From the NCBI RefSeq assembly GCF_009762795.1, contig NZ_CP046400.1, positions 969,501 through 1,033,500 on the forward strand: 64,000 nt of DNA. Direction: 5' to 3'. Below, piece after piece: positions 38,556 through 54,655 of the stretch; within the stretch, counting starts at the first letter, position 1; every line of letters begins with the position of its first letter. This stretch comes from Pseudodesulfovibrio cashew. GTDB lineage: Bacteria > Desulfobacterota > Desulfovibrionia > Desulfovibrionales > Desulfovibrionaceae. Under the pieces are notes generated by a model. It did no database searches. It saw nothing but the letters and a program-made list of their open reading frames with translations, and had not been told where the DNA came from. The position numbers were made by a program, and so were the translations under genes.

Positions 38556-38670
38556 ATAAAACGGAGTAAGATAAGGTGCCGACAAGTGACGAAACTTGCC
38601 CACCCCTTGCCAAAGCGGGTTCGAGTGCGCACTATGGGCTTTTGACCCTGCAAGGAAGGACGGCTCCCTT

Positions 38671-41148
38671 ATGGAAACAGTACAGGCACAGGTCAACGGC
38701 ATGCACTGCGCGGCCTGCTCGGGACGCATCGAGCGGGTGGTGGGCAAGATGGACGGCGTGGACTCGATCTCGGTCAACCTGGCCGCCGAAACCATGGCCC
38801 TGACCTATGACCCGGACACGGTCTCCCTGGACGAGATCGGAAGCCGCATCAAGGACCTCGGCTTCGAGGCCCTTTTCCCGGAACCCTCCGCCGGAGGGCT
38901 GGAGGAGCTCAACCTCGCCCTGGGCGGCATGCACTGCGCGGCCTGCTCGGCCCGCATCGAGCGGGTGACCGGCAAGCTGCCGGGCGTGAACGCCGCTGCC
39001 GTGAACCTGGCCGCCAACACCGGCTCCTTCACCTTCGACCCCTCCCAGGTCACGCGCCGGGACATCCGCCAGGCCATCGCCGACGCGGGCTTCACCTCCG
39101 AGGTCCAGTCCGCCGCGTCCAGCAGCTTCGAGGAGCGCCGTCGCGAGGCCGAGGAAAAACTGGCCGCCCAGAAGCGGGAGCTCATCCCGGCCTTCCTCTT
39201 CGCCCTGCCGCTGCTCATCCTCTCCATGGGCCACATGTGGGGCATGCCGCTGCCCGCCTGGCTCGACCCGGCCCACGCCCCGGCCACCTTCGCCCTGGTT
39301 CAGCTCGCCCTGACCCTTCCCGTGGTCTGGTCGGGAAGGAATTTCTATCTCCAGGGCATCCCGGCCCTGCTGCGCGGCGGCCCGAACATGGACTCCCTGG
39401 TGGCCATGGGCACGGGCGCGGCCTTCCTCTACTCCCTATGGAACACCCTGGCCCTGCTCATCGGCGGCCACGCCGGGCTGGCCATGGACCTCTACTACGA
39501 GTCCGCCGCCGTGCTCATCGCCATGATCTCCCTGGGCAAGTATTTCGAGGCGCGCTCCAAGCTCAAGACCTCGGACGCCATCCGCGCCCTCATGCAGCTC
39601 ACCCCGGACACGGCCACCCTGCTCAAGGACGGCGAGCAGGTCTCCATCGCCGTGGACGAGGTGGAGCCGGGCGACGCGCTCCTGGTCCGTCCCGGCGAGC
39701 GCATCCCGGTGGACGGCACCGTGGCCGAGGGCCGCTCCTCGGTGGACGAGTCCATGCTCACCGGCGAGCCCATGCCCGTGACCAAGGAGCCCGGCGACTC
39801 CGTGGCGGGCGGCACGCTCAACACCCACGGCGCCCTGACCGTCACGGCCAAGCGCGTGGGCCAGGACACCACCCTGGCGCGCATCATCCGGATGGTGCAG
39901 GAGGCCCAGGGCTCCAAGGCCCCCATCGCCAACCTGGCCGACCGCATCAGCTTCTATTTCGTGCCCGCGGTCATGGGTATCGCCCTGATTTCGGGCCTGG
40001 CCTGGTACATCGGCGGAGCGGGCTTCCCGTTCTCCCTGCGCATCTTCGTGGCCGTCATGGTCATCGCCTGCCCCTGCGCCATGGGGCTGGCCACGCCGGT
40101 CTCCATCATGGTCGGCACAGGCCGGGGCGCGCAGCTCGGCGTGCTCATCAAGTCCGGCCGCGCCCTCCAGGAGGCGGGCGACCTGGACACCGTGGTCTTC
40201 GACAAGACCGGCACCCTGACCCACGGCAGGCCCGAGGTGGCCGACGTGACCATGGTCCGGGGCACCATGGCCCGCACCGAGGCCGTGTACCTGGCAGGCG
40301 TAGCCGAATCCCAGTCCGAGCACCCGCTCTCCCAGGCCATGGTTCGCCACGCCAAAAAGCTTGGAGACGACCTGCCCGCGCCCGACGAATTCGAGGCCAT
40401 CCCGGGCAAGGGTATCCGCGCCAAGGTGGGCTACCGCGAAATCCTCATCGGCAACTGGGCGCTCATGGAGGAGAACGGCCTCGGCTTCGGCGAGGACACC
40501 CTCTCGCCCCAGGCCGTGCCCCACTACGAGAGCCAGGGGGCCACGGTGGTCTACTTCGCCAGCGAGAACAAGCTCAACGCCCTGTTCGCCATCAGCGACG
40601 AGATGCGCGACGAGAGCCCGGAGGTGGTCGCCGCCCTCAAGGAGCAGGGGCTGACCCCGGTCATGCTCACCGGCGACAAGGAGGCCAATGCCCGCGTCGT
40701 GGCGGGCAAGGCGGGCATCGACACGGTCATCGCCGGGGTCCTGCCCGAGCGCAAGGCCGAGGAAGTGGCCCGGCTCCAGGCCGAAGGCCGCAAGGTGGCC
40801 ATGGTCGGCGACGGCATCAACGACGCGCCCGCCCTGGCCCGGGCCGACATCGGCATCGCCATGGGCGGCGGCATCGACGTGGCCGTGGAGTCCGGCGACG
40901 TGGTGCTCATGCAGAACGACCTGCACGCCCTGCTCACCGGTCTGAATCTCTCCCGGGCAACCATGCGCAACATCAAGCAGAACCTGTTTTGGGCGTTCGC
41001 CTTCAACACCATCGGCATCCCGGTGGCCGCCGGGGTCCTCCACCTCTTCGGCGGACCGACCCTCAACCCGATGATCGCGGGCTCGGCCATGGCCATGAGC
41101 TCCGTGACCGTGGTCTCCAACGCCCTGCGATTGCGATTTTTCAAGTAA
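38671..41148 (+). CDS. copA: Copper-exporting P1B-type ATPase
   Basis: The 825-residue pump has two N-terminal heavy-metal domains, each with GMHCAAC (C13-x2-C16 in the first). It has membrane helices, the CPC transport site (C467-P-C469), phosphorylation site D511-KTGTLT, an SEHPLSQ segment, and [13 protein letters not shown]. It exports Cu(I) from the cytoplasm using ATP. The start at 38671 is preceded by GGAAGGA. A copper chaperone follows. A CsoR-type operator is not visible upstream, so copper regulation is not assigned. Confidence 0.95.
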
Positions 41149-44878: not shown

Positions 44879-45787
44879 ATGCACAAATTCGGAACCGTCG
44901 CCCTGATCGGGCCGCCCAACGCGGGCAAAAGCACGCTCATGAACCGCTATCTCGGACAGAAGGTGGCCATAGTGTCGCCCCGCCCGCAGACAACCCGCAA
45001 CCGCATCAGCGGCATCTACACGGACGACGACGCCCAGATCGTGTTCCTGGACACGCCCGGCATCCACCAGCTCCGGGGCAAGATGAACCGTTTCCTGCTG
45101 GAATCGGCCTGGAACGCCCTGTCCGGTGCGGACGCGGTGGTGGTGCTGCTGGACGCGGCCCTGTACGCGGCCAAGCCCCAGTTGCTGGAGAAGGAGATCA
45201 AGCCGCTGGTCAAGCCCGTTGCCGAGACCGGCCGTCCCGTGCTGGTGGCGGTGAACAAGGTGGACAGGATCAAGGACAAGCCCGCCCTGCTGCCGGTCAT
45301 GGCCCGGCTGGGCGCGTTGTGGCCAGAGGCCGAGTTCATTCCGGTTTCCGCTCTGCGCGGCCAGGGAACAGAGGAACTGCTGGCCCGCCTGCTCGACTTC
45401 ATCCCCGAGGGACCGCCCATGTTCCCGGAGGACCAGATTTCCACCGCGCCTGTCCGGTTCATGGCTGCGGAGATCATCCGCGAGCGGCTGTTCTATTCCC
45501 TCCGGCAGGAGCTGCCCTATTCCACGGCCGTGGAGATCGAGGCCTGGGACGAACAGACGCGGCCCGGAACCGCCATCATCAACGCGGTGATCTACACGGC
45601 GCAGAAGAACCACAAGGGCATGATCATCGGCAAGCAGGGAAGCAACCTGAAGAAGATCGGCAGCGAGGCCAGGAAGGAAATCGCCGAGCTGCTCGGCTGC
45701 AAGGTCCACCTCGAGCTCTGGGTCAAGGTCCGCTCCGGCTGGACCGAGGACCCCGGCTTCCTGCGAGCCATGGGGCTGGGCGAATAG
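44879..45787 (+). CDS. era: GTPase Era, 16S rRNA assembly factor
   Basis: The 302-residue protein has GPPNAGKS (11-18) as G1, a DTPG G3, NKVD G4 and SAL G5, and a C-terminal KH domain with IIGKQGSNLKKIGSEA. Era aids 30S ribosome assembly by binding the 3' end of 16S rRNA. AAGGACAGCA precedes the ATG at 44879; the longer frame to 44795 lacks family features. It ends before a bidirectional-looking terminator. Confidence 0.95.
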   Translation: MHKFGTVALIGPPNAGKSTLMNRYLGQKVAIVSPRPQTTRNRISGIYTDDDAQIVFLDTPGIHQLRGKMNRFLLESAWNALSGADAVVVLLDAALYAAKPQLLEKEIKPLVKPVAETGRPVLVAVNKVDRIKDKPALLPVMARLGALWPEAEFIPVSALRGQGTEELLARLLDFIPEGPPMFPEDQISTAPVRFMAAEIIRERLFYSLRQELPYSTAVEIEAWDEQTRPGTAIINAVIYTAQKNHKGMIIGKQGSNLKKIGSEARKEIAELLGCKVHLELWVKVRSGWTEDPGFLRAMGLGE

Positions 45788-45813
45788 CCCATTAGAAATT
45801 CACCGGACACGAC

Positions 45814-45849
45814 AAAGCCGCCGCTCTCCGAGAAGAGAACGGCGGCTTT
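45814..45849. terminator. Hairpin terminator between era and the EF-hand gene
   Basis: A 10-bp stem AAAGCCGCCG/CGGCGGCTTT (45814-45823 and 45840-45849) with an inner CTCT/AGAG stem lies between two convergent genes. It has A- and T-tracts at both ends, so it may serve both directions. This is the natural terminator for era and for the EF-hand gene on the minus strand. Confidence 0.7.
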
Positions 45850-45866
45850 GCCATGTCTGCGGGGCG

Positions 45867-46130
45867 CTATTCCCCGTGGGCGTCCTCGAACCCCTTGCTC
45901 TCCTTGTAGCTCTCCCACTCGTCGTGGGATACAGAGCCGTCCTTGTCCTGGTCGGCGGCTTCGAAGACCGTCATGTCGCCGTCGGAAAAGGCTACCAGAA
46001 ACTCACCCTTGGACACGGCCTCGTTGCCATCGGCGTCCAGGGAGAAAAAACAGACATTGTAGTTGGGTTCGGCCTGCGCAGGCAGGCACAGGGCTGCGAA
46101 GAGGCACAGGGCCAAAAACGCTTTTTTCAT
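45867..46130 (-). CDS. Secreted EF-hand protein
   Basis: This 87-residue protein has a signal peptide (about 1-20) and two EF-hand calcium-binding loops: DADGNEAVSKGE (about 34-45) and DQDKDGSVSHDE (about 61-72). It probably binds Ca2+ in the periplasm. It follows the CstR-like gene on the same strand by 33 bp, and may be in its transcript. Function is otherwise unknown. Confidence 0.8.
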   Translation of the reverse strand: MKKAFLALCLFAALCLPAQAEPNYNVCFFSLDADGNEAVSKGEFLVAFSDGDMTVFEAADQDKDGSVSHDEWESYKESKGFEDAHGE

Positions 46131-46163
46131 GTGTGGTTCCTTGTCTTGATCTATTTCAGTGTA

Positions 46164-46460
46164 TCAGCCATCGAGGAAGCCGGTCAGGACCTTGATGAAC
46201 TTGTCCAGCGAATCCTCGGGATTGGTGCCGTTGATCATGGCGTCGTGGTGGCAGCGGATCATGTACCGCTTCAGAATCAGCTTGTTGGCGGACTGGAGCG
46301 CGGAGCGCACGGCCCGGACCTGGACCAGAATCTCCTCGCACTCCTTGCCGTCCTCGATCATGCGCTGGATGCCGCGCACCTGCCCTTCGATGCGCTTCAT
46401 GCGCGCCAGGACGTTCTTCTTGAGCCGCTCCTGTTCAATTTCGCTTGCCGTACCGTTCAT
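46164..46460 (-). CDS. CsoR-family repressor, CstR-like (persulfide sensor type)
   Basis: The 98-residue protein is a CsoR/FrmR (DUF156) helical repressor, with ARMKRIEGQVRGIQRMIEDG (about 19-38). Its metal-site positions are C41 and C70, spaced 29 apart as in CsoR (C36, C65) and CstR (C31, C60). The His four residues before the second Cys in CsoR is Tyr66 here. Two Cys without the His matches persulfide-sensing CstR rather than copper CsoR. It diverges from a TorD-like gene across a CCC/GGG inverted repeat (46527-46545), and lies next to a sulfane-sulfur operon, which fits CstR. GGAGAAGAGG precedes the ATG. Confidence 0.82.
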   Translation of the reverse strand: MNGTASEIEQERLKKNVLARMKRIEGQVRGIQRMIEDGKECEEILVQVRAVRSALQSANKLILKRYMIRCHHDAMINGTNPEDSLDKFIKVLTGFLDG

Positions 46461-46526
46461 CCTCTTCTCCTCACCGGTAAAACCCTTCCCGGGCGGCGTA
46501 CAACGTTGCCGTTCCGCCCGTAATAC

Positions 46527-46545
46527 CGTACCCTCGCAGGGTACG
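46527..46545. promoter_or_regulatory. CsoR/CstR-type operator, divergent region
   Basis: CGTACCCT-CGC-AGGGTACG is a perfect 8-bp-arm inverted repeat around CGC. It lies between the repressor gene (minus, start 46460) and the TorD-like gene (plus, start 46574). CCC/GGG half-sites of this form are typical of CsoR-family operators. Two further repeats of the same design lie near 53.8-53.9 kb. Confidence 0.7.
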
Positions 46546-46573
46546 TATCATCACGGACAAAGGAGGCGTTCCC

Positions 46574-47221
46574 GTGCCCGTACCCGTCATCAGCCCTGTC
46601 GATGAACAGATCTTCCTTCTCAATGTCATCGAACTGCTCGCCGCGCTGTTCCGCACCCCCGACAGCGCTGGCTGGGCCGCGATCCGCGATACGGGCCTGC
46701 CTGCCTTGGCGGCCCGTGCCCCGATTCGGACGGGACAGCTTACGGATACGCTCGAAAAACTGCAAGGAGCATTAGACTCCTCTGAAAATACCATCGGAAT
46801 CATTGACGAACTGCTCTCCGAACAGGTCCGTCTTTTCGTGGCAGGACGCGGCGGCGTTGTCGCCCCGCCCTATGAGTCCTGCCACCGGCCCGGCGAATCG
46901 GGCGTCATGGGCGAGGCCGCCCTGTCCATGCGCTCGAGGCTGGCCGAGGCCGGACTCGAAGTCGCCCTTCCCTCCAACGAGCCCCCGGACCACCTCTCCC
47001 TGGAGCTGGAATACCTCCACCACCTGCTGTCCACGGCCTGGGCCGAACAGGACGGCACCCGGGAGGCGGAAGCCCTGGCCTTTTCCGGAGAGACCATGCT
47101 CCCCTGGGTGGCCCGCTTCCGGGACGCGCTGCTCGAGGGCACGCCCCATCCCGTGTTCACGCACGCCGCCGACCTTGCCGTGGCCCTGTTGGAGGAGCTG
47201 AGCTCCAGAGCCGACAAGTAG
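46574..47221 (+). CDS. TorD/DmsD-like molybdoenzyme chaperone
   Basis: The 215-residue protein has the all-helical pattern and the PPYESCH (about 96-102) and EPPDHLSLELEYLHHLL (about 137-153) motifs of TorD-family chaperones. These bind the Tat signal of molybdopterin enzymes and help insert the cofactor. The GTG at 46574 has AGGAGG seven bases before. Its partner is most likely the Tat-exported molybdoenzyme at 50982-53177. It is convergent with the selenocysteine-candidate gene (4-bp gap) and shares a divergent region with the CstR-like repressor. Confidence 0.8.
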   Translation: MPVPVISPVDEQIFLLNVIELLAALFRTPDSAGWAAIRDTGLPALAARAPIRTGQLTDTLEKLQGALDSSENTIGIIDELLSEQVRLFVAGRGGVVAPPYESCHRPGESGVMGEAALSMRSRLAEAGLEVALPSNEPPDHLSLELEYLHHLLSTAWAEQDGTREAEALAFSGETMLPWVARFRDALLEGTPHPVFTHAADLAVALLEELSSRADK

Positions 47222-47225
47222 CCGA

Positions 47226-48233
47226 TCAGGGCGTTGCCTTGGAGTCGGTCACCGCCATCCTGAGCGTTTCCAGGAAGTGGTCGTCCGGCTCGAAGTAGCC
47301 GCGTTTCACCAACTCGATGATCCAGTTCCCGTCGCCCTGCGACCGGACCAGATAGGCCAGGGGCAGTTGCGCCTGGCCCAGGCACTCGAAGATCTGTCCG
47401 TGGCTGTCCGAAAAGAGCGGGTAGGACACGTCGTAGTGCTTGCGGAACCTGACCACGTCCCTGTTGGTGTCGAAGACGCCCAGCCCGATGAACTTGAGCT
47501 TTCCGGCCAGGACCGGATCGGACTCCACCCGCTCGGCGAACTGCGAGAGCTTCTTGGTCTCGCTGACGCAGTCGTTGCACATGGTGTTGTACATCTGGAT
47601 GAGCACGAACTTCGCCTTGAGGTCGGCCAGGGAAAGCCAGCGGGCGCCCGACGGCAGGCCGAGATATTCCCGGTCCCTGTCTCCGCTGAGCACAGCCACC
47701 CGGCAGTCCGGGAACAGGTCGCCCACAGCCAGGACCTTGCGCTTGCCCTCGTCGCCCGAGACCAACTCCGGATGAGACGCCTTCCAGCCATGGAACCCCC
47801 TCGGATACCGGTACACGTTGGTGTACCCCATGCGCACTGCCCAGTGCGCTGCAATACTGCTGCGCAGTCAACGGAAACTCCGACAGTAGATGACCAGCTT
47901 GCGCTTGCGGTCGCTCCCCACCAGTTCCTCGAACGCCGCGCGCTTCTCCTGCGAAAGGGAGAGCTTGTCGCCCAGGTCGAACTCAAGGTTCTCCGCGTCG
48001 GGAACATGACCGGCCTCGAACTCATAGTCCGCCCGGGCATCGATGATGATGGCGTCGGTGTCCGAGTCGAGCAGCTCGGCAAGATCACGGGTGTCGATGA
48101 GCGAGTATCCTTCCCGGGCGGCCTCATCCACGGCGTCCTTCCACCAGATTTCATTCTCGTCCGCCGAGGCCGGCAGCGCGAAAAGACACAGGGCAAGAAG
48201 CAGGCATGCCGCAAACTTACGTGGTTTCCGCAT
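47226..48233 (-). CDS. Candidate selenocysteine rhodanese-thioredoxin fusion (in-frame TGA at codon 122)
   Basis: A strong start (AAGGAGGAGATC before ATG 48233) begins a signal peptide (about 1-24) and a rhodanese domain reaching LVIYCRSFR, then an in-frame TGA (47868-47870, codon 122). The same frame continues LRSSIAAHWAVRMGYTNVYR, the rest of the rhodanese. It then runs into a thioredoxin-like domain with CNDC in QMYNTMCNDCVSET, for 335 codons in all. C-x4-U matches the C-x4-C in the rhodanese domains of the neighbouring triple-rhodanese protein (YCGGFKC and YCGGYKC). An 18-nt hairpin follows the TGA and fits bacterial SECIS rules. Read as selenocysteine, it makes one intact periplasmic enzyme; read as stop, two fragments. 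A Cys-to-stop mutation is the alternative. selABCD are not in this window. Confidence 0.75.
47832..47870 (-). promoter_or_regulatory. Candidate bacterial SECIS element
   Basis: On the minus strand, the TGA at 47868-47870 is followed after 18 nt by GCGCACT-GGGC-AGTGCGC (47832-47849), a 7-bp stem with loop GGGC. The distance from TGA to loop is 25 nt and the loop starts with GG. Both fit the published bacterial SECIS model (16-37 nt to a loop with G among its first two bases). It would direct selenocysteine insertion by SelB. Confidence 0.65.
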
Positions 48234-48268
48234 GATCTCCTCCTTGCCCTGTTCAGTACAGGATGCGA

Positions 48269-48312
48269 GGCCGGGGGCTTGTTGGATCGGACCGCTGTGA
48301 CGGCCCCCGGCC
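48269..48312 (-). other. Intercistronic hairpin between the two rhodanese genes
   Basis: GGCCGGGGGC and GCCCCCGGCC (48269-48278 and 48303-48312) form a 10-bp stem with a 24-nt loop just after the triple-rhodanese stop (48335) and before the ribosome site of the selenocysteine candidate (48233). There is no T-run, so it is not an obvious terminator. It may stabilise the upstream mRNA or attenuate the downstream gene. Confidence 0.55.
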
Positions 48313-48334
48313 CATGGGTGTTATGGGCTCCCGA

Positions 48335-49429
48335 CTACTTGTTGGGATGCACCTCATAGCTGTTGTCTTCGCCGAAGTCGTTGGTGGCCTCCAGGTAGAA
48401 GACGTTCTTGGCGTCCGGAACCTGGTCCATGTAGAGGTAGTAGGCCTCGCCGGCGCGTGCGCCGGAAGCGCAAGAGAAGACGATGGGCTTGTCAGTGGGG
48501 ATTTCCTTGGCCTTCTTCTCCACTGCGTCAACGGGCATGTTGATGGCGGACGGGAAGTGACCGGCGGCGTACTCGGCGGGGTCACGCACGTCGATGAGCA
48601 GGATCGCGGACGGATTCTCCTTGATGGTCTTCAGGAACCAGTCGGTGTCCACGGCGCCTTCGGCCGCACCGGCCTTGACTTCCATGGCGGAACCGCCGCC
48701 GAACATCTCCTTCCAGCCGGGGTAGCCGGCTTCGGCGACCACGACCTTCTTGTAGCCAAGGTAGCGGGCCTTGACCGCGGACTTGTGGGACAGGGCGCAC
48801 TTGTAGCCGCCGCAGTAGTAGACCAGGGTCACGTTGGCCTTGTCCACGGGCAACATGCCGCGCTTGGCCGCAAAGTCGCGCTCGGGGATGCCCAGCGCGC
48901 CGGGGATGGCGCCGCCCAGGTACTTCTTGTACGGGCGGGCGTCGATGGAGACGAAGTTGTCGCCGTTGGCGAGCATGGCGCTCAGGCTCTCAAGGCCGAT
49001 GGAGTAGTACGGGGCCTTCTTTTTGAAATCGGGGAAGCCGGCGGCATAGACCTTGACGTTGGTGTAACCGAGAGCCTCGGCCTTGAACGCGGCCTTGTGG
49101 GACAGCGGGCACTTGAAGCCGCCGCAGTAGAAGATCAGCAGGTCGCCCTTGTTGGCGGGCAGCTTGTCCACCATCTTGTCGAACTGGCTGGTGGGAATGG
49201 AGACCGCAGTCGGGATGTACCCTTCCACGTACTTGGGCTTGTAGGGACGCGAGTCCACGATCATCACGCCCTTGGGCTTGGGCATCTTGGCGTACTTTGC
49301 AACGAACGAATAGTCCACGATGCTGTGGAACTTCTTGAATTCCTTGGCCTCGTTGGCCAGGGCGGTGCCGGCCAGGGCGGTCAGCGCGAAAGCCAGCATC
49401 ACGGCGACGGCCATCACTCTCTTTTTCAT
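48335..49429 (-). CDS. Secreted triple-rhodanese protein
   Basis: The 364-residue protein has a signal peptide (about 1-25) followed by three rhodanese domains. The first two have the active-site loop YCGGFKCPLSHKAA and YCGGYKCALSHKSA; the third has FSCASGARAGEAYY, with one cysteine. Rhodaneses move sulfane sulfur via a Cys persulfide. Located in the periplasm beside a molybdopterin sulfur oxidoreductase, it probably carries sulfur to or from that enzyme. GAGGAGAGTGTC precedes the ATG at 49429. It lies in the operon with the selenocysteine candidate. Confidence 0.88.
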   Translation of the reverse strand: MKKRVMAVAVMLAFALTALAGTALANEAKEFKKFHSIVDYSFVAKYAKMPKPKGVMIVDSRPYKPKYVEGYIPTAVSIPTSQFDKMVDKLPANKGDLLIFYCGGFKCPLSHKAAFKAEALGYTNVKVYAAGFPDFKKKAPYYSIGLESLSAMLANGDNFVSIDARPYKKYLGGAIPGALGIPERDFAAKRGMLPVDKANVTLVYYCGGYKCALSHKSAVKARYLGYKKVVVAEAGYPGWKEMFGGGSAMEVKAGAAEGAVDTDWFLKTIKENPSAILLIDVRDPAEYAAGHFPSAINMPVDAVEKKAKEIPTDKPIVFSCASGARAGEAYYLYMDQVPDAKNVFYLEATNDFGEDNSYEVHPNK

Positions 49430-49529
49430 GACACTCTCCTCGGGAGATCGGGTTGGGTACAAACCCCGCCCGGCGGCCCTTCTCCGCCGGGCAGAGCCCT
49501 TTGCATAAACACTATCGTTTCCGGGGGGA

Positions 49530-50246
49530 TCATTCCCCGCCGGTCTTGACCTTTTCCCACCACAGTCTGTGGTGATGCTTGGCGTAGCCGTCGGGGACCA
49601 CGCCGGTGAACATGGACTTGAAGCCCGGGCGTTCCTCGGGGGAGATGGCGGCCATGTAGACATGGACCAGCAGCCCGGCGAAGACCAGACCCACGGCGAT
49701 GAAGTGCACGGCCACGGCCCAGCCGATCAGCCCCGTGGACTCGGCCCCGAAGGTCCGGTCGGACAGGAGCATGATCACGCCGGTGGCCGCGATGACGATG
49801 CCGCCAACCACGCTGGCCTGGGCAAAGGCCTTCTGACCCATGTTGTAATAGCCCTGGTCGGGCAGGGTCGGGTCGACGCCCACGGCCTTGAGGGCCTTGG
49901 GCCCCAGGGTCATGAGCACCATTTTCTTGAGCATCCAGCCCATGTCGCGGGCCGGACTGACGGCGAAGACCTCTCCCAGGAAAAAGGCCGCGCCCCGGAA
50001 GTTGACCAGCAGGTAGAGGACGAAGCCGGTGATCCAGGCCAGGCCGATGTATTCGTGGATGAGCAGCAGGTTGCCGCCTCCGCCCACCATGGAACGCATG
50101 GCCTCGGGATAGCCCGAGCCGAACGGGTCGATGGCGGGGTTCTGAATCAGGCCCACGCCGGTCAGGAGCAGGAGCAGCCAGCACGCGGCGTTGAACCAGT
50201 GGATGAAGATGTCGGATTTGTCATGCCGCTTGTAGGTCTTAGGCAT
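49530..50246 (-). CDS. Membrane cytochrome b subunit (FDH gamma-like)
   Basis: The 238-residue protein begins MPKTYKRHDKSDIFIHWFNA and has four predicted membrane helices with several His residues (HWFNA, LLIHEYIG, AVHFIAVG, LLVHVYMA) as in cytochrome b subunits of formate dehydrogenase or hydrogenase. It would pass electrons between menaquinol and the FeS subunit. The start at 50246 overlaps the FeS stop by 8 bp, with AGGAGGATTCC before it, so it is translationally coupled. Confidence 0.85.
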   Translation of the reverse strand: MPKTYKRHDKSDIFIHWFNAACWLLLLLTGVGLIQNPAIDPFGSGYPEAMRSMVGGGGNLLLIHEYIGLAWITGFVLYLLVNFRGAAFFLGEVFAVSPARDMGWMLKKMVLMTLGPKALKAVGVDPTLPDQGYYNMGQKAFAQASVVGGIVIAATGVIMLLSDRTFGAESTGLIGWAVAVHFIAVGLVFAGLLVHVYMAAISPEERPGFKSMFTGVVPDGYAKHHHRLWWEKVKTGGE

Positions 50247-50982
50247 CGGAATCCTCCTTGTGGGAATCATCGCTTCCGGCAAAGAGCTGGCGGCCGAGCA
50301 TGGCCAGCACGCCCAGGCCGGACAGGCCGACGATGCCCTTGATCAGCGGGGCGGACTGCTGCATGGCCACCATGGAGGCGGGCACGACCGCTTCGCCACC
50401 CCAGTCGCCGGGACCGGGATCGCCGAGGTAAAACATGTTGGGCTTGGTGTCGGTCTTGGCCGCCACCCGGGTCAGCCGCTCCTTGTTCTTGCGGTACAGG
50501 AGCCCGGCCTCGGAGTTCGGGTCGTTGATGTCGCCGAACACGCGGGCCTTGGTCGGGCAGGTGTCCACGCAGGCCGGGAGCAGCCCCTGAGCGCGGCGCT
50601 CGGGACAGTAGTTGCACTTGTCGGCCTTGCGCTTTTCCGCGTTGCGGAAGCGCGCGCCGTAGGGGCAGGCCGGGATGCAGTTGCCGCAACCGATGCACAG
50701 GGTCTCGTCGATGACGACCGCACCGGTCTCCGCGTCCTTGAAGGTCGCGCCCGTGGGACAGGCGCTCACGCAGGTAGGATTCTCGCAGTGCATGCACGCG
50801 CCGGGCTGGAAGCGCGCCTTGGACCGGGGCCGAACGCCCGCCGCCGGAGCCTCCCCGGCGGTCTTGATCCAGTTGCGCCACTGTCCTTCGGGAACATGGT
50901 TGGCCACCTTGCAGGCGGCCACGCAGGCCTTGCAGTCGATGCATTTGGCCGCATCGATGACCATCGCCAGTTGCTGTGCCAT
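50239..50982 (-). CDS. Ferredoxin-like FeS subunit (four [4Fe-4S] clusters)
   Basis: The 247-residue protein has four Cys-rich sites: C14-x2-C17-x2-C20-x3-C24 (AKCIDCKACVAAC), ACMHCENPTCVSAC, LCIGCGNCIPAC, and KCNYCPE with CVDTC, typical of the B subunit of DMSO-reductase-family enzymes. It ends in a hydrophobic helix (VGLSGLGVLAML). It carries electrons from the Mo subunit to the membrane cytochrome. Its ATG overlaps the Mo gene stop (TAATG), a sign of coupling. Confidence 0.9.
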   Translation of the reverse strand: MAQQLAMVIDAAKCIDCKACVAACKVANHVPEGQWRNWIKTAGEAPAAGVRPRSKARFQPGACMHCENPTCVSACPTGATFKDAETGAVVIDETLCIGCGNCIPACPYGARFRNAEKRKADKCNYCPERRAQGLLPACVDTCPTKARVFGDINDPNSEAGLLYRKNKERLTRVAAKTDTKPNMFYLGDPGPGDWGGEAVVPASMVAMQQSAPLIKGIVGLSGLGVLAMLGRQLFAGSDDSHKEDSDA

Positions 50983-53177
50983 TACGCCACCTTCCTTGTT
51001 ACGGAGACGAACGTGGTGTGCATGGACGCGTTGCCCGTGACCTCGTCGTAGTCGTCTTCCAGGAGTTCGTTGATGGACGCGCCGTTGCCGTGGGAGAGGT
51101 GCTGCATGGTCGACAGGGTGTTGTACCCGGAGAGCATGTACACCGTGTCGCCACGGATGTTGTCCGAGACCTCGGCCTTGAGTTCCTGGGTGCCCACGGC
51201 GCTGGAGACCTGAACAAGGTCGCCGTCGTTGATGCCGAGTTCGGCGGCCTTCTCCCTGTTCAGCCACAGGGTGTTGGTCGGATGGAACTCGTTCAGCAGG
51301 GAGTTGTTGGCCGTGGAGGTCTGGGTGACCGTGGCGTCACGCCCGATGATCAGCCTGAACTGGTTCTTGGGCGTCTTGGCCGGGGCCGTGTACTTGGGCA
51401 GCGGGTCGATGCCCATCTGCTCGTAGCGCTGGTTGTACAGCTCGACCTTCTTGGACAGGGTCTTGTAGACCTTGCCGTCGTAGATTCCGTAGACCTTGGA
51501 CGGGTTGTAGTAGACGCCGTCACGGTCGAGAATCTCCTCGGCCCTGTTCAGCCCGGCCAGTTGCTTCTGCCGGTATTCGGGGATGGTGAAATCGAAGTAT
51601 TCACCCAGCTCCATGCGGTTGGCCAGCCCCTTCATGATGTCGAAGCAGGACCGGGACTCGTACAGAGGATCGATGACCGGGTCGCGCTTGATGACACAGG
51701 CGCAGGCGCTGGAGCCCTGAAGACCGGAGCAGGGATCGTACCGTTCCAGATAGGACTGGGAGGGCAGGACCAGGTCAGCAAACCAGGCCGTGTCGGACAT
51801 GGCGATGTCCACCACCGTGACGAAGTCCATCTTGTTCATCATCTCGATGGTCTTCTTCCGGTTGGGCGCGGTGCCCATGGGGTTGGTCTTGTAGACCAGC
51901 CAGCCCCGGATCTCGTACGGATCGTCGGCCAGGATGGCGTCGCGGGTGATCAGGAACGAGCCCTCGTGCTCGAACATCATGGGCACCTTGCCCTCGTCGA
52001 TGCGCTCGTAGTGGTTGTCGTCGTACCAGGGTGCGTCATAGGGCACGCCCTTGAGGCCCACCTGGCGGGCTGCCAGCAGGCCGCCGGGCTTGTCCCAGTT
52101 GCCGAGCAGGCCGTTGACTATGGCAAAGGCCCGCCTGATCTGGGTGGAGTCCTCGTAGTCGGAGCTGCGGCGGCCGGGGTAGACCATGGAAGCCGGGGCT
52201 GCGGCCGCCAGCTCGCGCGCCATGCGGGAGATGGCCTCAACCGGGATGCCGCACTCCTCGGCGGCAAAGCCGGGGGTGTACTGCTTCACGTGCTCGGCGA
52301 GCTGCTCGATGCCGTAGGTCTTTTCCTCGATCCACTGGGGATCGTAAAGCTTTTCCGTGATGATGACGTGGGCCAGGGCGAGCATGAGGGCCATGTCCGT
52401 GCCGGGCCGGATGGGATACCACTCGTCGGACAGGGCCGCGGTCTTGGTGTAGCGCGGGTCCAGGGTGACCAGCTTGCAGCCGTGCTCGCGCATGGCGGTC
52501 ATCAGGTCCATGGAGTCCGGGGTGACCAGGGCCTCGAACCGGTTGGCGCCGCTCATGAGCACGTACTTGGAGTTGAGCACGTCCGCATAGGGAACCTCAC
52601 CGAAGGTGTCCAGGAAGGCGCGGTTGTTGGAGACCAGGCACAGGGACTCGTGGGAAGTGACGTTGAACGAGCCGTAGACCTCGGCCAGCCTGCCCACGAA
52701 CTTGGAGTGCAGGTCGGTGCCAGCGGAGAACAGGTGCCCGCAGGGCAGGTACTTCTTGCGCACCTCGAGCATCTTCTCGGCGGCCATGTCCAGGGCCTCG
52801 TCCCAGGGGATGCGCTGCCACTTGCCTTCGCCGCGTTCACCCTTGCGCAGCAGGGGGTACTTGAGGCGGTCCGGGTCGTAGACCTGGCGGATGCCGGCGT
52901 TGCCCCTGGCGCAGAGCATACTGCGCGACTTGAGGAATTTAGGGTTCGGGTCCAGCTTGGTCACCACGCCGTCCTCAACCCGCGCGATGAGTCCGCACTT
53001 GTTGAAGCACATGTCGCAGGCCGAGAACTTGGAGTCCCAGGGCTTGACCGCGGGCGCGGCGGCGCTGGCCTTGCGCAGGCCGCCCAGGACCGAGGCGCCG
53101 CCCACGGCGCCCGCCGCGAATAGGCCGGAGGCCTTGAAAAAGTCGCGGCGTGAAACTTTATGATTGGATTCTGACAT
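50982..53177 (-). CDS. Tat-exported molybdopterin oxidoreductase (PsrA/PhsA-like)
   Basis: The 731-residue protein has a twin-arginine signal SRRDFF (residues 9-14), a [4Fe-4S] site C54-x2-C57-x3-C61 and C89, and the Mo ligand C180 in SHESLC. It has later DMSO-reductase-family segments. The Cys ligand and length fit PsrA/PhsA polysulfide or thiosulfate reductases, rather than Ser (DMSO) or selenocysteine (formate dehydrogenase) ligands. It is exported folded to the periplasm. It pairs with the FeS and cytochrome subunits downstream, a cytochrome c upstream, and TorD at 46574. Its substrate (polysulfide, thiosulfate or tetrathionate) is inferred by family and rhodanese neighbours. Confidence 0.88.
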   Translation of the reverse strand: MSESNHKVSRRDFFKASGLFAAGAVGGASVLGGLRKASAAAPAVKPWDSKFSACDMCFNKCGLIARVEDGVVTKLDPNPKFLKSRSMLCARGNAGIRQVYDPDRLKYPLLRKGERGEGKWQRIPWDEALDMAAEKMLEVRKKYLPCGHLFSAGTDLHSKFVGRLAEVYGSFNVTSHESLCLVSNNRAFLDTFGEVPYADVLNSKYVLMSGANRFEALVTPDSMDLMTAMREHGCKLVTLDPRYTKTAALSDEWYPIRPGTDMALMLALAHVIITEKLYDPQWIEEKTYGIEQLAEHVKQYTPGFAAEECGIPVEAISRMARELAAAAPASMVYPGRRSSDYEDSTQIRRAFAIVNGLLGNWDKPGGLLAARQVGLKGVPYDAPWYDDNHYERIDEGKVPMMFEHEGSFLITRDAILADDPYEIRGWLVYKTNPMGTAPNRKKTIEMMNKMDFVTVVDIAMSDTAWFADLVLPSQSYLERYDPCSGLQGSSACACVIKRDPVIDPLYESRSCFDIMKGLANRMELGEYFDFTIPEYRQKQLAGLNRAEEILDRDGVYYNPSKVYGIYDGKVYKTLSKKVELYNQRYEQMGIDPLPKYTAPAKTPKNQFRLIIGRDATVTQTSTANNSLLNEFHPTNTLWLNREKAAELGINDGDLVQVSSAVGTQELKAEVSDNIRGDTVYMLSGYNTLSTMQHLSHGNGASINELLEDDYDEVTGNASMHTTFVSVTRKVA

Positions 53178-53224
53178 ATGGATCCGCCTTTCTCCCTTGC
53201 AGCGTCGGGATTGTCAGGTGGAGG

Positions 53225-53249
53225 CCGTCCGTTCGGATCACCCGGACGG
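53225..53249 (-). other. Intercistronic hairpin before the Mo gene
   Basis: CCGTCCG/CGGACGG (53225-53231 and 53243-53249) form a 7-bp stem between the cytochrome c gene and the Mo gene on the minus strand. It may stabilise the cytochrome mRNA or adjust downstream expression. There is no T-run. Confidence 0.4.
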
Positions 53250-53312
53250 ACGGCCCGGAATGGCGATGGGAAACCGCCTTCGCAACCAGGCGGCTCCCTG
53301 CTTTACCTCGTA

Positions 53313-53636
53313 TTAGCTGCACTTGGCCGGGGACGGAGAGTCCGAGGCGTAGTCGTGCAGGTAGGTGAAGATGTCGTTGAGGTCCTTGTCGGAAATGGTC
53401 CAGTCGCCCGAACACTTGATCTTGGCCTTGTCGGCGAAGGTGGCGTTCCATTGGGCCTGGGTCTTGGAGGCGGGGCTCAGGTCGGAAGCCTCGCTGCCGT
53501 TGTGACAGGATCGGCAGTTCTTGCGGTACAGGAACTTGCCCTTGCGGGCGTTACCGCCACCCATGGCAAAGGCCATGGAGACGGCGAAAAGAGTGATCAG
53601 CGCGCTGGCAGCGATCAGGGTAAGTTTGCGGGACAT
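53313..53636 (-). CDS. Small periplasmic cytochrome c
   Basis: The 107-residue protein has a signal peptide (about 1-25) and one heme-binding site CRSCH (about 41-45). It has no Met after the heme motif, so the distal ligand may be unusual; two later cysteines (KCSGDW and AKCS) are non-heme. It likely shuttles electrons to or from the molybdoenzyme in the periplasm, and leads the operon. GGAGGAAACC precedes the ATG at 53636. Confidence 0.85.
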   Translation of the reverse strand: MSRKLTLIAASALITLFAVSMAFAMGGGNARKGKFLYRKNCRSCHNGSEASDLSPASKTQAQWNATFADKAKIKCSGDWTISDKDLNDIFTYLHDYASDSPSPAKCS

Positions 53637-53753
53637 GGTTTCCTCCATTGTCGGTTTATTTTGGGAACACAGCGATCCATGCTCGTGTTCTTATATGCCC
53701 TTGGCGATTTCCGCCATTATAACCTCTACCCGGTATGGGAACCTCTTTCCTTC

Positions 53754-53782
53754 CATATACCCATAGGGGGTATAGGTGTCAA
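53754..53782 (-). promoter_or_regulatory. Promoter of the Mo operon with operator in its spacer
   Basis: On the minus strand, TTGACA (53777-53782) and TATATG (53754-53759) are exactly 17 bp apart. The spacer and the -10 box contain the inverted repeat TATACCC-N5-GGGTATA (53756-53774). A CsoR-family repressor bound here would block RNA polymerase. The operon start (53636) lies about 110 bp downstream. This is the clearest regulatory site in the window. Confidence 0.75.
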
Positions 53783-53906
53783 GACTGGAATAGAAAAATA
53801 TAATGTCGGCGCGGCAGGGCATAGAAGATGCTAATCAAGTAGAAAATACAGCGTATTAGCTCGCAACAAAGCACCTGCCATCAGCATGGCAGCAAAAGAA
53901 AAGAGA

Positions 53907-53923
53907 ATACCCTACCTGGGTAT
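53907..53923. promoter_or_regulatory. Third CsoR/CstR-type operator-like repeat
   Basis: ATACCC-TACCT-GGGTAT is a 6-bp-arm inverted repeat near the stop of the metallophosphoesterase gene (53927). It is about 130 bp upstream of the operator in the Mo-operon promoter on the same minus-strand transcription direction. It may be a distal operator that helps repress the operon through looping, or a coincidence. Confidence 0.55.
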
Positions 53924-53926
53924 AAG

Positions 53927-54655
53927 TTACCAAAGGCGGTCGGCGAAGGCGCGGTGCAGGCCGTGGGAACGGATGAGTCTGACGGTCTTTTCGATGTCGT
54001 AGGACACGAAGCGCAGGGTCAGGATGCGGCTGTCCGTGTCGAAGAGGGCGTATTTGGCGCGGGGGTCACCGTCGCGGGGCTGGCCCACCGCCCCTACATT
54101 GAGGAGGTGGCGCAGGCCGGGGTCGAGGAGCGTCTCTCCCTCGGGCAGGGCAAGCTTTGCCGAGGCCTGGCCGTCTTTGGAGGTGAAGCGCATCAGGTCA
54201 TGGGTGTGGCCCACGAAGCATACCCCCTCCTGGTAGCGGCTGAAGACCTCGTCCATGCTCTCCTCGTAATTCCATATATACTCGTTGACCGAGTCGGGCG
54301 GGGTGCCGTGCACGAACCGGCAGTCGTGGGCCGTCGCGCTCTTGGGGTGGGAGACCAGCCACTGGTAGGTTTCCTCGCTGATCATCTCGCGGGTGCGCCG
54401 CAACGCGTCACGCGCAGGCTGGTTGAAGCGCGTCAGGTTGTGAATGTTGATCAGCCCCTGCTCGTGGTTGCCCTGGAGGATGACCATCTCCCGCGTGCGC
54501 AGCAGGTCGCAACACTCCTGCGGCTGCGGACCATAGCCGACCACGTCGCCAAGGCAGTAGATCTCGTCCGGACCTTGGGCGTCGATGTCGACGAGAACGC
54601 TTTGCAACGCCTCGAAATTGGAGTGGATGTCCGAGAGGATGGCGAGTTTGGTCAT
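53927..54655 (-). CDS. Calcineurin-like metallophosphoesterase
   Basis: The 242-residue protein has LSDIHSN (about 6-12), GDVVGYG (about 35-41), GNHE (about 61-64), and a late VGHTHD (about 158-163), the metal-binding residues of calcineurin-like phosphoesterases. Small bacterial members hydrolyse phosphodiesters, often cyclic nucleotides or nucleotidyl phosphates. The substrate is unknown. It is upstream of the Mo operon on the same strand but has its own start. The start at 54655 has no clear ribosome site. Confidence 0.85.
   Translation of the reverse strand: MTKLAILSDIHSNFEALQSVLVDIDAQGPDEIYCLGDVVGYGPQPQECCDLLRTREMVILQGNHEQGLINIHNLTRFNQPARDALRRTREMISEETYQWLVSHPKSATAHDCRFVHGTPPDSVNEYIWNYEESMDEVFSRYQEGVCFVGHTHDLMRFTSKDGQASAKLALPEGETLLDPGLRHLLNVGAVGQPRDGDPRAKYALFDTDSRILTLRFVSYDIEKTVRLIRSHGLHRAFADRLW

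Follow-up and report, generated by a model that had tools for sequence, protein, structure and literature searches.

A Cx4U rhodanese-thioredoxin gene of Pseudodesulfovibrio cashew with an in-frame UGA: a predicted selenoprotein in a Phs/Psr-type molybdoenzyme operon

Introduction

Is a rhodanese-thioredoxin gene of Pseudodesulfovibrio cashew, whose frame is cut by a single TGA, a broken gene or the gene of a selenoprotein, and if the latter, what would selenium do in it? The gene lies in the 64,000-nucleotide stretch of DNA analysed here, which is referred to as the window. An earlier note on this DNA had proposed that the TGA encodes selenocysteine (Sec). The case was judged on the marks of a bacterial selenoprotein, namely a conserved in-frame UGA with Cys in the remaining relatives, the genes selA, selB, selC and selD in the genome, and a SECIS hairpin with a small G-bearing loop just past the UGA.

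Selenocysteine rhodaneses, which the earlier note described as predicted before, are already known. The portion of a May 2026 review used here (PMC13188914) lists five rhodanese selenoprotein forms, UxxS, UxxG, CxU, UxxG and TsoB UxxxxU; Cx4U is absent among these five. A Sec 'rhodanese-like domain' protein is mentioned in PMC8318568, with no motif in the text consulted, and Sec sulfurtransferases are listed in the corresponding part of PMC2398784, where the motif is not given. The Cx4U rhodanese may be an addition to the known Sec rhodaneses, and an earlier report of it is possible. With it the selenoproteome would gain a Cx4U rhodanese selenoprotein, and its conserved operon would tie selenium to respiratory sulfane-sulfur chemistry.

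Results

An exported rhodanese-thioredoxin gene with one in-frame TGA

The fusion gene had been placed at 47226..48233 with its strand unstated. The coordinates hold, and the gene is on the minus strand, reading from 48233 to 47226 (335 codons and a terminal TGA); translation of the plus strand over this interval gives no such protein. The ATG start at 48233 is preceded by AAGGAGG. When TGA is read as U, the minus strand yields a single protein of 335 residues with its sole U at codon 122. This translation and the Pfam matches agree with the one continuous frame described earlier, consisting of signal peptide, rhodanese and CNDC thioredoxin and interrupted only at that codon. The features of the gene are as follows.

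47226..48233, minus strand: predicted selenocysteine rhodanese-thioredoxin fusion gene of P. cashew, 335 codons plus terminal TGA
48159..48233, minus strand: signal peptide spanning roughly residues 1-25, with a basic start, then a hydrophobic stretch and ASA at its end (assigned by eye)
47778..48089, minus strand: rhodanese domain, residues 49-152 (Pfam PF00581, 62.4 bits)
47883..47885, minus strand: codon 117, Cys of the rhodanese loop (CRSFRU), presumed to be catalytic; Cys in 62/63 members
47868..47870, minus strand: in-frame TGA (codon 122), predicted to encode selenocysteine; 56 of 63 members have TGA and 7 have Cys
47229..47741, minus strand: TlpA/ResA/CcmG-like thioredoxin domain, about residues 165-335
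47568..47579, minus strand: CNDC redox motif, residues 219-222

The rhodanese score exceeds the PF00581 gathering cut-off of 22.2, and the loop Cys117 is present. The TGA sits five residues past this Cys, which gives a Cx4U loop (YCRSFR-U). For the second half, Pfam reports AhpC-TSA at residues 198-291; a thioredoxin fold and a CxxC place it with the TlpA/ResA-like thioredoxins, and the chains it matches are of AhpC-TSA, ResA-like and peroxiredoxin type. Because this thioredoxin half took up all listed Foldseek rows and the VIA-align list, the rhodanese half was assigned from Pfam and sequence matches. PDB chain 1qxn (named sulfide dehydrogenase), which we take to be Sud, was among the weak matches of the rhodanese.

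Codon 122 is TGA or Cys in every member

Homologues were searched in 288 family genomes, of which 125 had at least one match at 1e-10, in 348 genomes of the class, family genomes included (63 with a match at 1e-24), and, with a rhodanese-domain profile, in 395 genomes spread over the phylum (43 at 1e-20). The 63 class-search matches, the window's own among them, were aligned together with L083, a second match in genome G277. These 64 loci represent 63 distinct proteins, L030 being a duplicate. The Cx4U rhodanese occurs in several families of the window's class and in some Desulfarculaceae.

The column of codon 122 holds TGA in 56 of the 63 distinct members (own gene included), Cys in 7 and any other codon in none, which excludes chance. 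The homologues thus show only the two states that the selenocysteine proposal allowed. At codon 117 the single departure from Cys is a TGA in L083, a TsoB protein. Further in-frame TGAs are present in four rows. That of L083 is the first Sec of its Ux4U; those of L042, L055 and L067, near the C-terminal end, are probably true stops read through by the script. Twenty-one loci of named genomes (Pseudodesulfovibrio, Desulfocarbo, Desulfarculaceae, Desulfonatronum, Desulfonatronovibrio, Desulfonatronospira and others; assemblies partly shared with the 63-member set) carry Cx4U in 15 cases and Cx4C in 6. The residues right after the TGA (LRSSIAAHWAVRMGY) are well conserved across the family. Among 23 TGA-bearing members of the genus (253 pairs), median pN/pS was 0.28 downstream of the TGA (codons 123-325) and 0.40 upstream, as uncorrected proportions from related sequences.

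These data bear on the possibility that the TGA is a true stop, so that a short rhodanese is made and the thioredoxin is restarted at an internal GTG (47837). Gene calls in the protein collection do give the second half alone: the window gene's own piece is P0007 (201 aa), and strong matches other than the full-length ones are mostly second-half pieces of about 200 aa, some of them named redoxin or peroxiredoxin. The conservation of LRSSIAAHWAVRMGY just past the TGA is at odds with a stop, as are the Cys relatives, which are continuous; all nine full-length matches in the collection (P0004-P0006, P0008, P0009, P0012, P0050-P0052) have Cys here. Moreover, the TGA of the 17 stand-alone TGA members is followed by just about 30-50 codons (68 in L067 according to the script), which leaves no second gene to be made. 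A true stop is highly improbable. Ordinary gene calling splits the selenorhodanese-thioredoxin gene in two.

A recent nonsense mutation, a sequencing error or reassignment of TGA to Trp has nothing in its favour beyond the stop itself and is scarcely credible. The identical codon occurs in 56 distinct sequences, which disposes of the sequencing error that had been a concern; purifying selection after the stop argues against a recent mutation; the alternative residue is Cys and never Trp, and the gene itself terminates with TGA. Pseudogene, restart and code-reassignment readings were rejected on TGA/Cys conservation, downstream selection and the short tails of the stand-alone members. The apparently broken gene is almost certainly a selenoprotein gene, and comparative evidence makes selenocysteine the best reading of the UGA at codon 122.

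The genome encodes the selenium machinery

The P. cashew genome is one complete contig of 3.91 Mb, and selA, selB, selC and selD were all found in it. tRNA-Sec scored 80.8 bits and was also called as tRNA-SeC by ARAGORN; SelB scored 387 bits, SelA 608 bits and SelD 338 bits. Three FdhA proteins are above the model cut-off, two of which carry one TGA each. SelD and both Sec FdhA have hairpin loops beginning GG at 21-24 nt. By its sequence, the P. cashew SelD is a selenoprotein in its own right (VKAAGU, one in-frame TGA; L018, G000:C1:902389-903315). selA was found in 74 of the 75 genomes queried, Cys bearers included, and its presence or absence is uninformative with respect to the TGA; the sole genome without a match, G329, bears a TGA gene and is 77% complete. 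Three findings had been named as fatal to the selenocysteine reading, an odd residue at codon 122, absent sel genes and a sequencing error. None of them was encountered, and the reading is supported.

A SECIS-type hairpin follows the UGA

A hairpin with a small G-bearing loop was found just past the UGA in the window.

47832..47849, minus strand: SECIS-type hairpin GCGCACU-GGGC-AGUGCGC, 7-bp stem, loop starting 26 nt after the UGA

For each member, hairpins with a G-bearing loop lying 16-37 nt past the TGA were considered and the best one was taken; the members are related, and p-values are not to be read literally. The mean energy was -10.1 kcal/mol in the 56 TGA members versus -3.3 in 4662 other sequence windows of the same genes. 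Hairpins of -7 kcal/mol or better were seen in 45/56 TGA members, 5/7 Cys members and 15.6% of the control windows. None reaching this value was found in 11/56 TGA members, and L023 and L063 have only -2.6. With the register left free, TGA and Cys members differ at a one-sided p of 0.044.

The window's own register is kept with 6-8 of 8 pairs by 20 of the 23 TGA members of the genus; the other three (L026, L031, L037) have a hairpin whose loop lies at 23. Over the whole family at least six pairs form in 32/56 TGA members, and the remaining 24 would have their SECIS in another register or lack it. Five of the seven Cys members keep 2-4 pairs in this register. L044 keeps seven and L078 six; in these two Cys versions the hairpin persists for the most part in the Sec register, possibly as fossil SECIS of a recent Sec-to-Cys change.

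Covariation in 26 chosen sequences scored 0.187 versus 0.137 for shuffled alignments, a value reached by none of 500 shuffles. Three pairs are changed on both sides, which was matched by 43/500 shuffles, and the alignment slid by +2 columns also scores well (0.148). On this alignment RNAalifold preferred another set of helices, which had no two-sided change. Resampling of synonymous codons gave a mean z of -0.8, with 7/56 TGA members at the 5% level; it accounts for most of the hairpin energy and so counts against a SECIS. Single-sequence folding of the window hairpin (z of -0.5 to -1.3) was not convincing, and no SECIS family of Rfam was found at 45500-54000. As single-sequence folding and resampling give weak support, the SECIS claim leans on conservation, on the fixed-register comparison within the genus and on covariation. 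A SECIS is likely present, though it is the weaker leg of the selenoprotein case.

The gene is the last of a Phs/Psr-type operon

Upstream and in the same direction lie genes for a small cytochrome c, a molybdopterin subunit, a 4Fe-4S subunit, a cytochrome b561 subunit and a tandem rhodanese, behind which the selenorhodanese-thioredoxin gene comes last. Two further genes are found on the other side.

53313..53648, minus strand: small c-type cytochrome (PF13442)
50982..53177, minus strand: catalytic molybdopterin subunit of Phs/Psr type with a twin-arginine-like start (SRRDFFK)
50239..50982, minus strand: 4Fe-4S electron-transfer subunit (PhsB/TtrB/NrfC-like), start taken at MAQQL
49530..50282, minus strand: cytochrome b561-type membrane subunit, PhsC-like (PF01292)
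48335..49429, minus strand: tandem rhodanese, three PF00581 stretches, two Cx4C motifs
46574..47221, plus strand: TorD/DmsD-type chaperone, convergent (PF02613; TorD model 50.8 bits, below the cut-off of 132)
46164..46460, minus strand: CsoR/CstR-family repressor with Cys41, Cys70 and Tyr66 (PF02583; residues by eye)

The catalytic subunit scored 521.4 bits on the PhsA model NF012032, under its cut-off of 694, and is therefore called Phs/Psr type and not PhsA proper. Its closest solved structure is 2vpw (375 bits). Its substrate may be thiosulfate, polysulfide or another sulfur compound, as far as the sequence indicates.

This arrangement is conserved. Where the flank suffices, the own locus being included in all counts, the catalytic subunit is present in 20/20 loci and the cytochrome c in 19/19. 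The iron-sulfur and cytochrome b subunits are each present in 45/46 loci with enough upstream DNA, the exception being TsoB. The tandem rhodanese adjoins in 57/59 (misses L079 and TsoB), TorD is found in 47/61 and the repressor in 42/59. The selenorhodanese is very probably a part of the Phs-type operon, and the proposed linkage to a molybdopterin operon is borne out by the catalytic, iron-sulfur and cytochrome b genes upstream. The repressor had been called CstR-like. A CsoR/CstR-family repressor is indeed present, but PF02583 assigns it to the family only. Its Tyr66 presumably stands at the position where copper sensors have His.

The thioredoxin part lies outside the conserved core

The 63 members comprise 43 thioredoxin-like fusions (38 Cx4U, 5 Cx4C), 19 stand-alone rhodaneses (17 Cx4U, 2 Cx4C) and one TsoB. 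The rhodanese-thioredoxin fusion, which together with the operon and its repressor had made up a distinctive module in the earlier note, is real in the window gene but is not the core of the family, as 19/63 members stand alone. The thioredoxin part is absent from whole clades, in which the operon and the Cx4U remain. As judged from sequence, the constant unit is an exported Cx4U/C rhodanese in the operon. The further suggestion that CNDC serves as reductant fails as a general rule, because CxxC is missing in 5/43 fusions and 19/63 members are without a thioredoxin domain. The fusions that lack CxxC in their thioredoxin-like part (L058, L060-L063) retain the Cx4U and the operon.

The U/C state at the second loop position needs at least 8 changes on a tree of 102 rhodanese domains, in which ten TsoB-type rows group into a clade of their own and the domains of the tandem rhodaneses stand apart. 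The tree was built by a quick method from 113 columns, with 40/99 inner branches drawn open, and took in 22/67 neighbour domains, including 3/8 Sec-bearing ones.

The adjoining tandem rhodanese can be a second predicted selenoprotein

The TGA had been described as falling at the second Cys of the C-x4-C seen in both rhodanese domains of the neighbouring gene. The correspondence holds by motif (FYCGGFKC and YYCGGYKC in P. cashew), but the neighbour has three rhodanese stretches and not two. When the tandem rhodanese was read through TGA, an in-frame TGA replaced the second Cys of a Cx4C in 8/60 distinct loci. One belongs to the same genus (L023, 278-1381, plus strand; FYCGGFTU) and comes from one fragmented assembly. 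The other seven belong to one other family (L067, L069, L070, L073, L074, L075, L076), with FYCMNPAU, FHCQNLAU and similar motifs; L076 has FYUQNLAU, which is Ux4U. All eight have a hairpin with the loop GGA at 23 nt. One chemistry has apparently been recruited at the equal loop place in two adjoining predicted selenoproteins. The tandem rhodaneses of L074 and L076 begin with a lipobox-like stretch (by eye).

Likeness to known systems

TsoB (NF045694, PMC13188914 in the part used) comes closest. It is a related exported rhodanese, matching residues 13-153 of the window protein at 106 bits, with Sec at the second loop position and coupling to a thioredoxin-type reductant. TsoB differs in its Ux4U with two Sec, its length of about 570 aa and its DsbD membrane part, whereas the window protein has Cx4U with one Sec, a soluble TlpA/ResA domain and a Phs-type operon. 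Assignment of the window protein to TsoB was rejected, given 106.1 bits against a curated cut-off of 805, the Cx4U motif and a Pfam result that lists no DsbD; the positive control L083 scored 983.7 bits on the same model. L083 (2209-3921, minus strand, genome G277) is a full TsoB with Ux4U rhodanese and DsbD, and the same genome also encodes L048, a Cx4U rhodanese-thioredoxin. In the 7 kb examined at the L083 locus no Phs-type gene was found.

Forms 1-4 of PMC13188914, as described in the part used, likewise carry their Sec within or close to the active-site loop of the rhodanese. Form 3 (NF041203, CxU) gave the window protein 26.9 against a cut-off of 115; forms 1, 2 and 4 are set apart by their listed motifs and not by sequence comparison. 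With the TlpA/ResA/CcmG thiol-disulfide oxidoreductases the window protein shares fold and CxxC, but its domain is fused behind a rhodanese and is about 15-24% identical. Phs/Psr thiosulfate or polysulfide reductases share the catalytic, iron-sulfur and b-type subunits that adjoin the window gene, and the operon here adds a tandem rhodanese and a Sec rhodanese. Oleidesulfovibrio alaskensis G20 (P0050) and Pseudodesulfovibrio sp. (P0004) have the same rhodanese-thioredoxin architecture with Cys for Sec.

Discussion

In rhodaneses the loop Cys bears sulfane sulfur in the form of a persulfide, and a Cx4C loop disulfide has a precedent in the low-molecular-weight protein tyrosine phosphatases. The overall reading that we mildly favour is a periplasmic selenoprotein of sulfane-sulfur metabolism, acting as a thioredoxin-coupled persulfide reductase or sulfur-relay resolver. 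The persulfide-resolving mechanism itself is put forward with less than even confidence. The tandem rhodanese would collect sulfane sulfur from polysulfide, thiosulfate or the molybdoenzyme product, and Cys117 would take it as a persulfide. Sec122 ends the loop that holds Cys117 and would attack this persulfide, releasing H2S and leaving a Cys-S-Se-Sec bond. This bond would be re-reduced by the CNDC domain or, where the rhodanese is unfused, by a separate TlpA/DsbD-type donor. The protein would act beside the respiratory reductase, perhaps under control of the CsoR/CstR-family repressor.

Every aligned member has a second chalcogen, Cys or Sec, five residues further along, which suggests that the persulfide is resolved within the loop. 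The companion rhodanese with TGA at the matching loop position (8/60 loci, once as Ux4U) supports the mechanism. The fused TlpA-like domain here, and the DsbD and thioredoxin parts to which the Ux4U rhodanese is joined in the TsoB member L083, fit electron input. Given the fusions without CxxC and the members without a thioredoxin domain, reduction by CNDC would not be universal.

Alternatively, the Sec rhodanese could be a sulfur donor that hands sulfane sulfur to the Phs/Psr-type catalytic subunit, Sec speeding the transfer and the thioredoxin domain only protecting the loop from oxidation. Sud is thought to serve the polysulfide reductase of Wolinella as a sulfur carrier, and 1qxn is among the weak PDB matches of the rhodanese. 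The strict operon tie to a molybdoenzyme whose nearest solved relative is 2vpw and the adjoining tandem rhodanese agree with donation, which would also explain why stand-alone rhodaneses suffice in 19/63 members. Transfer, however, does not need the second loop chalcogen that is kept as Cys or Sec in 63/63, and fusion to thioredoxin, or to DsbD in TsoB, suggests electron input. We regard a donor role as rather unlikely. The sequences would fit sulfur flow between the rhodaneses and the molybdoenzyme in either direction.

Thiol-disulfide or peroxide defence was also considered, in which the rhodanese fold would serve as a disulfide-reductase scaffold for Sec-dependent redox repair of periplasmic cysteines of the sulfur enzymes. 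The AhpC-TSA, ResA-like and peroxiredoxin matches of the C-terminal domain point this way, and selenoproteins with known function almost all act in antioxidant defence according to the part of PMC9312934 used. Such a role is improbable in view of the conserved rhodanese Cys, the operon with a sulfur-respiration type enzyme, and the loss of the thioredoxin part in whole clades where operon and Cx4U stay.

Returning to persulfide reduction, a broader and still more tentative proposal is a selenium-based sulfur relay. Two adjacent periplasmic Cx4C/U rhodaneses, each with recruited Sec, would form a dedicated persulfide-reductase pathway beside the Phs/Psr-type molybdoenzyme, with interchangeable reductant modules (a TlpA-like domain, a degenerate domain, a separate partner, or DsbD in TsoB). 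The reason for Sec is testable, as Cys and Sec versions occur naturally within one genus. For annotation, the gene is split by ordinary calling, and the rhodanese next to it can be a second selenoprotein.

Two other genes of the window may be recorded. Next to the repressor lies a small exported-looking EF-hand-like protein (45867-46130, minus strand), which occupies the same place in many loci of the genus. Further away is a P-type metal ATPase (38596-41148, plus strand) with two GMHCAAC-type metal-binding repeats, of the copper type by its look.
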